Of a stretch of 32,515 nucleotides of DNA, positions 26,122-28,711 are shown in pieces. The position numbers were made by a program, and so were the translations under genes. The DNA is from Deltaproteobacteria bacterium. GTDB taxonomy: Bacteria; Desulfobacterota; WTBG01; CAIYCZ01; CAIRTM01. Each line of letters starts with the position of its first letter. The stretch's first letter is position 1. The notes under the pieces were generated by a model, which had not been told where the DNA came from, did no database searches, and was given only the letters and a program-made list of their open reading frames with translations. The stretch covers positions 1-32,515 of the forward strand of contig VGSH01000024.1 in the NCBI GenBank assembly GCA_016875025.1, written 5' to 3'.

Positions 26122-27375
26122 TCAGCGGATTACTTCCTGCTCTCGCAGCTCCGCAAGGTCATCCTCTCCGTACCCGAGGCCCAGCAGAATCTCGCGGCTG
26201 TGCTCACCGGGGGCGGGCGCGGCCGCGCGCATACCGGCCTGTGCGGCGCTGAAACGGGCCGGATAGCCGGGCAGCTTGACGCGGCCGTGCGCGGGGTGGT
26301 CGAACTCAACCACGTAGGCGTTTTCCAGGGCTTGAGGATCGTCGAGCACTTCACCGATATGCTGAACCGGGGTAAACATCAGCCCGTTTCGCTGAAACAC
26401 GCCGATCCATTCGTCGCAGGTGCGCGTGGCCAGAACCCGGTCGAATATCGCAACCAGTTCGGCGACATTGCTGCGACGGGACTGCGCATCGCCGAAGCGG
26501 GAATCAGACAGCAGTTCCTGTTGGCCGGTAATTTCGCAAAACTTCTCCCAGTACTTTCCTTCAGGATGATGTACGCCGATGATCCACTGGCCGTCGGCGC
26601 ATTGAAAGCTGTTGCGCAGGGGCGAGTTTTCATAGCGCTTCCAGGCAAAGGCGGTGTCGCGGTTCAACACGCTCTTGGCGTACAGGTTGCAGTACATCAG
26701 CCACAGCCCGGAGCTGTAAAGCGATGTATGCACGGACTGGGCGATGCCGTGGCGCTCGCGCGCGAACAGTGCGGCTAGGATGGCATGGCTCGTGGTAATG
26801 GCAGCAGCCTGATCAAGTACCGCCATGTGAATCAGGGCCGGATTTTGATCGTCGTACAGGTACATCATGCCGGAGCGGGCCTGTCCCATGGGATCAAATG
26901 CGCCCAGATCAGCTGCCGGGCCCTTTTCTCCGTAGCCGGAAACCCCGGCGTGAATAATGGCGGGATTGATGCGCCGCACGGATTCATAGTCAATGCCCAG
27001 CGCGGCCGTGGTGCTCAGGCGCAGATTGGTCAGAAACACGTCGGCTGTGGCGACCAGGCGTCTAAAGACTTCACGGCCCTTTTCTTTTTGTATGTCAAGG
27101 TGCAGCCCCTTCTTATTGCGGTTGGAGATTTCAAACATGATGCTCTCGCCGCCGGGAACGGTAATATCAACCCCGCCCAGCACGTTCCAGAAGCGCTCCG
27201 GGTCACCGTGGCCGGTTTCAATCTTGATGACCTCAGCACCCAGATCGCCCAGAATCGCGCTCGCGCCGGGCCCGGCATGAAACACGCCGTACTCAACAAC
27301 GCGTATGCCGCTGAGCGGCCCCTGTGCAAGGACAGCGGACGCTGAAGTTTCCGGGTTTGTGAGGTTTTCCTGCAT
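26122..27375 (-). CDS. CaiB/BaiF family (class III) CoA-transferase
   Basis: The enzyme moves CoA between an acyl-CoA and a carboxylic acid. The 417-residue product begins the family fold with GPLSGIRVVEYG and GDLGAEVIKIE. NRNKKGLHLDIQKEKGREVF and SGYGEKGPAADLGAFD follow, the latter region carrying the catalytic Asp. WIGVHHPEGKYWEKF and FTPVQHIGEVLDDPQA appear in the C-terminal part. ATG 27375 is preferred to TTG 27423 or ATG 27390 because GGAG lies 5 nt before it and the promoter's predicted start is at about 27423. The substrate is unknown. Its divergent partner operon makes prenyl-FMN, which hints at aromatic or unsaturated acid metabolism. Confidence 0.93.
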   Translation of the reverse strand: MQENLTNPETSASAVLAQGPLSGIRVVEYGVFHAGPGASAILGDLGAEVIKIETGHGDPERFWNVLGGVDITVPGGESIMFEISNRNKKGLHLDIQKEKGREVFRRLVATADVFLTNLRLSTTAALGIDYESVRRINPAIIHAGVSGYGEKGPAADLGAFDPMGQARSGMMYLYDDQNPALIHMAVLDQAAAITTSHAILAALFARERHGIAQSVHTSLYSSGLWLMYCNLYAKSVLNRDTAFAWKRYENSPLRNSFQCADGQWIIGVHHPEGKYWEKFCEITGQQELLSDSRFGDAQSRRSNVAELVAIFDRVLATRTCDEWIGVFQRNGLMFTPVQHIGEVLDDPQALENAYVVEFDHPAHGRVKLPGYPARFSAAQAGMRAAAPAPGEHSREILLGLGYGEDDLAELREQEVIR

Positions 27376-27429
27376 TGGTGCTCCGGACATTGGTGCGGGA
27401 AAAAAGTATTTTAAATCCGACAATCAATG

Positions 27430-27505: not shown

Positions 27506-27772
27506 ATGATACATGTTACGATAAAACGGCTCGGCCCCTTTCGCTCCCTGGCCGGCGTCTCAGGCGCGGACGGCGCGCGCACAGTTGAGCTTGCCCCGGG
27601 CGCCTGCCTCGGCGATGCGCTGCTGTGTGCGGAGCTGCCTGCCGATGTACCGCGAATTGTGCTGCTGAACGGGACCCAGCGCAGCGATGACCCGCAGCTG
27701 AATGACGGTGATATCATAACGGTATTCCCGCCGATTGCGGGCGGCTCTGCGGGGAAAGCATGGATACAGTAA
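27506..27772 (+). CDS. MoaD/ThiS-like ubiquitin-fold protein with C-terminal tail
   Basis: The 88-residue beta-grasp protein fits the MoaD/ThiS size and pattern: MIHVTIKRLGPFRSLAG, then the hydrophobic IVLLNG and LNDGDIITVFPPIAGG core. Family members end in GlyGly, which is adenylated by an E1-like enzyme and thiocarboxylated to donate sulfur. Here the GG is at residues 79-80 but eight residues (SAGKAWIQ) follow. It might be processed, or act without thiocarboxylate chemistry. Its last 13 bp overlap the start of the LpdD-like gene. GGAAAG is upstream of ATG 27506. No MoaE, MoeB/ThiF or JAMM protease is in the window. It is the first gene of the prenyl-FMN operon, which is unusual company. Confidence 0.8.
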   Translation: MIHVTIKRLGPFRSLAGVSGADGARTVELAPGACLGDALLCAELPADVPRIVLLNGTQRSDDPQLNDGDIITVFPPIAGGSAGKAWIQ

Positions 27773-28143
27773 GCGCGGGAACAGGGCTGTTTGCCGTGAG
27801 CGCCTCGCTGCAGACAATCGGTGAGGATGTGCTCATAGCGGTGTGGGGCGGCACGCTGCCGCATATCGGCGCGCTTGCGGTTGCAATCCCGCACCCGGAG
27901 AGCACCCCTGAGCGTGAGCGCAGCTCAACTGTGCTGCAGTTCAGCTTTCCGGGACATCGCGACGAGGTAGTCGCGCGCCGGGTTGCCGAGCGGGTCGCCT
28001 CAGCCCTGCAGCGCACGGTCGCAGTCAGCGCCGGCATTCATATCCCTGACATAACCCCGGATGGAATTGAAGCGGTGCTTGCCAACACGGACGCCCTCAT
28101 TGAGAATAGTATCATCGTGCTGCGGGGGAAGTATCATGACTAA
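27760..28143 (+). CDS. LpdD-like prenylated-flavin chaperone
   Basis: The 127-residue product resembles the LpdD/PAC family. VSASLQTIGEDVLIAVWGG is the typical opening, with TLPHIGALAVAIPHP following and TVAVSAGIHIPDITPDGIE further on. Members help pass prenyl-FMN from UbiX to UbiD-type decarboxylases, as in the gallate decarboxylase system LpdB/LpdC/LpdD. The gene overlaps the MoaD-like gene by 13 bp at its start and ubiX by 8 bp at its end, so all three are co-translated. No UbiD-type decarboxylase is in the window. Confidence 0.85.
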   Translation: MDTVSAGTGLFAVSASLQTIGEDVLIAVWGGTLPHIGALAVAIPHPESTPERERSSTVLQFSFPGHRDEVVARRVAERVASALQRTVAVSAGIHIPDITPDGIEAVLANTDALIENSIIVLRGKYHD

Positions 28144-28711
28144 GATTGTCGTAGCCCTGAGCGGGGCAAGCGGCCAGGTGTACGGCAGGCGCCTGATGGA
28201 AGTGCTTGCGCAGACCCCGGGCGTTGAAACGCACCTGATTATCAGCCCGTCGGCCCGCGCTATTATCGCGCATGAACTCGGAGCCGACGCGCCGGCCGAG
28301 ATTGAAAAACTGGCCGCGCATGTATATGAAAACTCAAATGTGGGCGCTGCGCCGGCCAGCGGCTCGTTTCTGCTTGACGCGATGGTTGTGGCGCCGTGCA
28401 GCATCAAAACCATGTCGGCCATCGCGCACAGCTACGCCGACAACCTGATTACGCGGGCTGCGGACGTGATGCTCAAAGAGCGCCGCAGCCTGTTGCTCAT
28501 GGTGCGCGAAACGCCCCTGCATCTCGGGCATTTGAAAAACATGGCCCGCATTGCCGAAATGGGCGGCATCATCGTTCCGCCGGTGCCCGCGTTCTATCAC
28601 CACCCCCGCACCATCGGCGACATCGTCGATCACAGCGTGGGCAGGGTGCTCGACCTGCTGAAGATTCCGCATCATCTGTTCAGGCGCTGGAACGGGTCAA
28701 TCGCGGATTGA
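28136..28711 (+). CDS. ubiX: Flavin prenyltransferase UbiX
   Basis: The enzyme joins dimethylallyl (mono)phosphate to reduced FMN to make prenyl-FMN, the cofactor of UbiD decarboxylases. It has 191 residues. The Rossmann-like start GASGQVYG is at 10-17. Family motifs VAPCSIKTMSAIAHSYADNL, RAADVMLKERRSLLLMVRETPLHLGHL and PPVPAFYHHPRTIGDIVDHSVGRVLDLL are all intact. GGGGAAG sits just before ATG 28136, which therefore is the start. It is the last gene of the operon and converges on, and overlaps, the small lipoprotein gene. Confidence 0.96.
   Translation: MTKIVVALSGASGQVYGRRLMEVLAQTPGVETHLIISPSARAIIAHELGADAPAEIEKLAAHVYENSNVGAAPASGSFLLDAMVVAPCSIKTMSAIAHSYADNLITRAADVMLKERRSLLLMVRETPLHLGHLKNMARIAEMGGIIVPPVPAFYHHPRTIGDIVDHSVGRVLDLLKIPHHLFRRWNGSIAD

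Follow-up and report, generated by a model that had tools for sequence, protein, structure and literature searches.

Why should a predicted ubiquitin-fold sulfur carrier of the MoaD type be encoded together with the proteins that make and carry prenyl-FMN? The question is raised by a 32,515-nucleotide stretch of a Deltaproteobacteria bacterium genome (contig VGSH01000024.1, hereafter the window), in which a moaD-like gene, an lpdD-like gene and ubiX follow one another (Table 1). The first-pass annotation of this DNA had described overlaps of 13 and 8 bp between the three genes, and both were found again when the sequence was re-read and are identical in the sister species of the same genus (G104; the source genome is G000). 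The GG at residues 79-80 of the moaD-like product and the eight-residue tail that follows it are likewise present, and the window indeed holds no UbiD, MoaE, MoeB or JAMM gene; all four are encoded elsewhere in the same genome.

Table 1. Features of the moaD-lpdD-ubiX region, in window positions
Feature	Position	Strand	Description
CaiB/class III CoA-transferase gene, divergent from operon	26122..27423	-	PF02515, E 1.2e-102
moaD-like gene	27506..27772	+	88 aa, beta-grasp, FPPIAGG motif at residues 74-80
Codons of the post-GG tail SAGKAWIQ	27746..27769	+	Last codons overlap the lpdD start
lpdD-like gene	27760..28143	+	127 aa, prFMNH2-binding chaperone family PF21758, fold of proteasome assembly chaperones
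ubiX, flavin prenyltransferase	28136..28711	+	191 aa; TIGR00421

Identity of the genes and their clients

Judged from its sequence, the moaD-like open reading frame is a real gene. Protein identity between the two species of the genus is 76% for moaD, 80% for lpdD and 92% for ubiX, and the corresponding dN/dS values are 0.25, 0.19 and 0.12; thus, all three genes are under purifying selection, which is weakest on moaD. The CaiB gene was left out of the operon because its adjacency was found only in this genus, as synteny with the sister species.

The lpdD product matches the LpdD family PF21758 (111.8 bits, E 1.9e-32) and the solved LpdD structures 8p4w, 8pzh and 8po5 (E about 6e-11), and the metal ligands of LpdD, His35, His61 and Asp63 (PMC10865409), are kept as PHIG and GHRD in the alignment to 8p4w. 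UbiX exceeds the cut-offs of TIGR00421 (245.9 bits, cut-off 108.9) and NF004685 (263.5, cut-off 188), and it is the only UbiX found in the genome. Apart from LpdD, no chaperone with its fold is known to bind prenyl-FMN. Three UbiD genes lie on other contigs (C101, C54 and C10). Against the menaquinone decarboxylase equivalog model (cut-off 495.9), the C101 UbiD reaches 604.5 bits, and its gene adjoins one for an MqnP-like prenyltransferase; it is probably the futalosine-route menaquinone decarboxylase and a client of the prenyl-FMN made here. The sole ubiX and the three ubiD genes outside the window support the earlier suggestion that the operon supplies prenyl-FMN to a UbiD encoded elsewhere. 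The lpdB/lpdD pair of L. plantarum (UbiX and LpdD) resembles this arrangement in that lpdD is cotranscribed with ubiX, the UbiD gene lies elsewhere and the LpdD ligand positions are kept (PMC10865409); unlike the operon described here, that pair comes without a ubiquitin-fold gene.

The assignment of the moaD-like product draws on several lines of evidence. Its score is barely above the cut-off of the Pfam ThiS/MoaD family PF02597 (22.6 bits, cut-off 22.5) and below those of the NCBIfam models TIGR01682 (17.1 vs 66.15) and TIGR01687 (24 vs 49.5). The AlphaFold2 model is a beta-grasp fold (pLDDT 80) with residues 79-84 and 86-88, in the GG and the tail, disordered, and its nearest PDB matches are SAMP1, P. 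furiosus MoaD and mycobacterial MoaD, the best by Foldseek being SAMP1 (3po0) and MoaD (1vjk) at E about 4e-5. By profile, the nearest relatives in the phylum are stand-alone MoaD proteins of other families (L094-L096, L115-L134; E 1e-27 to 1e-31), whose genes, unlike the window copy, lie beside selD-like, TPR or other genes and not beside lpdD. The FPPIAGG motif is invariant or nearly so across all MoaD relatives, AOR-linked ones included. Together with the MoaE and MoeB encoded in the genome, the motif, the fold and the relatives lead us to infer a genuine MoaD-branch sulfur carrier.

A joint cofactor-supply operon

MoaE is encoded on C37, a MoeB/ThiF-type E1 on C30, where a cysteine-desulfurase-like gene adjoins it, and a JAMM protease on C3, outside the operon; thus, nothing that a working MoaD needs is missing from the genome. 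ThiS-type carriers are encoded on C155 and C58, and the end of C58 and the start of C155 (L002 and L001) carry nearly identical thiF-like/thiS sequence, as a repeat or an assembly duplication. A same-genome search for tungsten or molybdenum enzymes, which the first-pass annotation had proposed, uncovered a tungsten-type AOR with a MoaD of its own: this second MoaD, with FPPIAGG and ending at GG, lies directly after the AOR gene on C34 (L060). It is of the MoaD type known from AOR clusters, which ends in FPPxxGG (Iyer, Burroughs and Aravind 2006, PMC1779556). The window copy is of the same type but, unlike the AOR-linked ones, has no AOR, MoeB or MoaE neighbor and carries a tail. Downstream of the AOR and MoaD genes on C34 follow a 4Fe-4S ferredoxin-like gene and electron-transfer genes, apparently heterodisulfide-reductase-like, and the cluster resembles those of the tungsten acyl-CoA or benzoyl-CoA reductase type.

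Readings of what MoaD does in the operon draw on position, sequence and fold, and the most economical of them, which we hold tentatively, is a joint cofactor operon in which a MoaD sulfur carrier is co-transcribed with prenyl-FMN supply and has its tail trimmed by JAMM. The three genes are laid out as one operon, which would be translationally coupled and would supply cofactor parts. UbiX would make prenyl-FMNH2, and LpdD, by analogy with the L. plantarum protein, would carry it to apo-UbiD encoded elsewhere, at least to the futalosine menaquinone decarboxylase. The MoeB-type E1 of the genome would adenylate the second Gly of FPPIAGG in the MoaD-like protein and turn it into a thiocarboxylate, whose sulfur would go into molybdopterin or tungstopterin synthesis. 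Co-transcription would then reflect the need for both cofactors together in the anaerobic metabolism of the lineage, and not contact of MoaD with prenyl-FMN. In this genus the stop after GG was lost and an eight-residue tail gained, and the carrier would become functional only once this tail is cut off, for which the JAMM protease encoded in the genome is the likeliest candidate.

The joint operon is favored by the conserved motif, by the closest relatives in the phylum, which stand alone or beside selD-like or AOR genes as expected of Moco/Wco carriers, by the MoaE, E1 and JAMM genes, and by the single ubiX with a UbiD that passes the menaquinone decarboxylase model. Against it count the second MoaD that ends at GG and the lack of any Moco/Wco or FMN riboswitch or other Rfam regulator near the operon at 11 loci searched at the Rfam gathering threshold. 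In addition, MoaE was not found in three genomes that have the triad (G200, G201 and G205; 91-98% complete). This is a slight argument against a role in molybdopterin synthesis alone, but a MoaE too diverged to recognize, or gaps in the assemblies, could account for it.

Distribution of the moaD-lpdD-ubiX arrangement

The PF21758 search covered 198 genomes of the phylum, 45 of them with a match, and the class sample comprised 17 genomes. In 11 of these 17, from three families and about 10 genera, moaD lies directly upstream of lpdD (family f1: G000, G104, G034, G185, G198, G199, G200 and G201; family f2: G160 and G202; family f78: G205). Every class genome with lpdD (11/11) has moaD next to it, and ubiX follows in 10 of the 11; the arrangement was not found in the other six sampled class genomes. 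The adjacency, for which the first-pass annotation had called for a survey, is therefore not confined to one genome. A contig scan found the triad in at least three uncultured deltaproteobacterial MAGs of the same class (L091, L092 and L093) among the matches listed. At 42 lpdD loci fetched outside the class, within the phylum, no MoaD of this type adjoined lpdD. The main finding of this work is that a ubiquitin-fold carrier gene is conserved beside prenyl-FMN genes; the tail is a peculiarity of the genus. A limited literature search found no paper on MoaD with UbiX, nor on a flavin prenyltransferase with a sulfur carrier.

Part of this pattern could be inherited adjacency and nothing else: an ancestor of the class would have gained moaD beside lpdD-ubiX, and frame overlap would have held the genes together with no process in common. 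Within the sample the triad occurs in a single class, as this account expects, and S41 peptidase, EnvC, FtsX and FtsE-like genes downstream are common to several triad members, which makes some of the conservation ordinary synteny. G071, the only f1 genome without the triad, lacks lpdD, ubiX and this moaD at 93% completeness, which also accords with joint inheritance; since ubiX is missing too, the absence may be an assembly gap or a real loss, and it was not counted as an independent co-loss. However, the triad is intact in this genus and in G199 although all flanks differ, between-genus protein identity falls to 36-40%, and other ubiquitin-fold genes associate with lpdD or ubiX elsewhere, as described below. 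We regard inheritance by itself as a somewhat unlikely explanation. The persistence of the three genes amid differing flanks, and the presence of moaD beside lpdD in every class genome that has lpdD, argue for the joint cofactor operon.

The post-GG tail

The first-pass annotation had proposed aligning C-termini to see whether the tail is conserved; it is not a feature of the module. In 8 of the 11 MoaD homologues from triads or moaD-lpdD pairs, the C-terminus lies exactly at GG (FPPIAGG or FPPISGG). The window gene product departs from this C-terminal GlyGly end by eight residues, and three products in all run past it: SAGKAWIQ in the source genome, SAEKAWIH in its sister species and CKQRKRT in G202. 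Most relatives have a stop codon directly after GG, with the lpdD start only a few nt and at most about 25 nt away, and in several of them GGAGG of the Gly codons is placed where the lpdD ribosome-binding site could be. This layout also fits the joint operon. In this genus the stop after GG is gone and the moaD frame runs into the lpdD start. Tail length and the intact FPPIAGG are kept in both species. Most of the conservation of the tail's DNA can be put down to the start region of lpdD and need not point to a function. A sequencing error was ruled out as the source of the tail in the source genome, as the sister species has the tail and the same overlaps. In G202, a TGC stands where most relatives have TGA or TAA, which fits a one-base stop loss and a sequencing error alike. 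On this reading of the sequences, the tail is a recent stop-codon loss at the level of the genus, plus one independent tail in G202. Of the observations that the annotation had named as refuting its proposal, homologues mostly ending at GG is what we found, whereas adjacency in a single genome and a sequencing error are both excluded.

Ubiquitin-like carriers of the QbsE/QbsD and PdtH/PdtG types have extra C-terminal residues that are cleaved off by a JAMM protease. The protein described here is like them in having residues after GG and in the JAMM and E1 genes of its genome; unlike them, its JAMM and E1 are encoded outside the operon, and no thiocarboxylic siderophore genes were seen. The pdt set contains PdtH, PdtG and PdtI (PMC1779556), and in the pdt siderophore clusters ThiS/MoaD-like, JAB and CaiB genes go together, much as a CaiB-like gene adjoins moaD here; the adjacency in this case is, however, genus-level synteny only. 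The AMP-ligase and CaiB genes of the window were considered as a pdt-like pathway, and this was unsupported, as they are common only to the sister species in plain synteny. Nor is the presence of JAMM diagnostic of the tail: the protease does not track it, because it occurs also in most tail-less relatives, and this weighs against JAMM trimming as a part of the joint operon.

The tail also bears on whether the protein is still a carrier. It may have ceased to be one, with the AOR-linked MoaD taking over and the triad copy drifting toward another role or decay. The tail itself, the second MoaD and the very long branch leading to the MoaD of this genus (3.6 changes per column in a poorly resolved tree) are what such a loss could produce, and the branch length, which looks as if the role had changed, counts against the joint operon as well. 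Nevertheless, the dN/dS of 0.25, the intact FPPIAGG and the equal tail length in both species argue against a loss of carrier function, which we consider unlikely. The tree of 52 MoaD rows, with few columns and many open forks, is compatible with a single or a multiple origin of the triad MoaD.

Ubiquitin-fold neighbors of lpdD and ubiX in other lineages

ThiS-like or SAMP-like proteins are encoded beside lpdD or ubiX in three other settings. In G047 (family f12; C329, L300:1407-12204), ubiD, a CoA ligase gene, a Tm-1-like gene, lpdD, ubiX and a ThiS-like gene are followed by the FAD, 2Fe-2S and molybdopterin subunit genes of a Mo hydroxylase, which places prenyl-FMN, a sulfur carrier and a Mo enzyme in one locus. 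In G053 (family f18; C4, L310:406-2481), a ThiS-like gene whose product ends in AFGG and an E1 gene after it run divergently from lpdD-ubiX, and ubiX is followed by a gene resembling that for the FAD subunit of a Mo hydroxylase; the same ThiS-like gene occupies the same place in G196, of the same genus (L014:1991-2230). In G204, which belongs to the class of the source genome, ubiX lies with genes for an E1-like ThiF/MoeB and a SAMP1/MoaD-like carrier ending in FFLAGG (C175, L200:3551-5177), and no lpdD match was found in that genome. These carriers belong to different branches of the ThiS/MoaD superfamily and stand in different gene orders, and they are therefore not one same insertion. By our rough estimate, which assumes that a genome of about 3000 genes encodes two to four of these carriers, chance would give well under one such neighbor in about 40 loci. 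The recurrence of these neighbors suggests that the link to lpdD and ubiX recurs, and their occurrence in other lineages, in one case followed by a Mo hydroxylase, favors some real link. Mo/W enzymes near ubiX agree with the joint operon as well: Mo-hydroxylase genes follow lpdD-ubiX in G047 and G113, and in G185, which has the moaD-lpdD pair without ubiX, the sole ubiX lies on another contig (C126, L202), where ubiD, an SDR gene and an AOR gene are its neighbors.

The same observations raise an interesting alternative, a direct role of the MoaD-like protein in prenyl-FMN delivery, in which it would bind LpdD or UbiX/UbiD and act in cofactor maturation as a scaffold, as a modifier attached reversibly or as a source of sulfur. 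The gene adjoins lpdD and not ubiX, and the persistence of the moaD-lpdD pair in G185 is in line with such contact, as are the neighbors in the three other settings, the retention of moaD in the triad genomes without a detected MoaE and the tolerance of extra C-terminal residues, with which a non-covalent role would be compatible. On the contrary, lpdD-ubiX pairs across the phylum mostly lack a ubiquitin-fold neighbor, LpdD in vitro needs no third protein (PMC10865409), and FPPIAGG is kept unchanged, as for a client of E1 and MoaE. A direct role is accordingly on the doubtful side. Its widest form, in which the ubiquitin-fold protein would be a third delivery component that binds or modifies LpdD or UbiD, and ubiX or lpdD-ubiX modules would have acquired ubiquitin-fold/E1 pairs several times in anaerobic bacteria, appears quite unlikely.

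Implications

A conserved ubiquitin-fold partner, together with the repeated association of such genes with lpdD and ubiX, offers a concrete candidate for UbiD reconstitution assays. The candidate bears on how UbiD is loaded and oxidatively matured without oxygen in obligate anaerobes. If the link proves to be one of shared regulation only, the supply of prenyl-FMN would still be tied to that of the Mo/W cofactor in these lineages.
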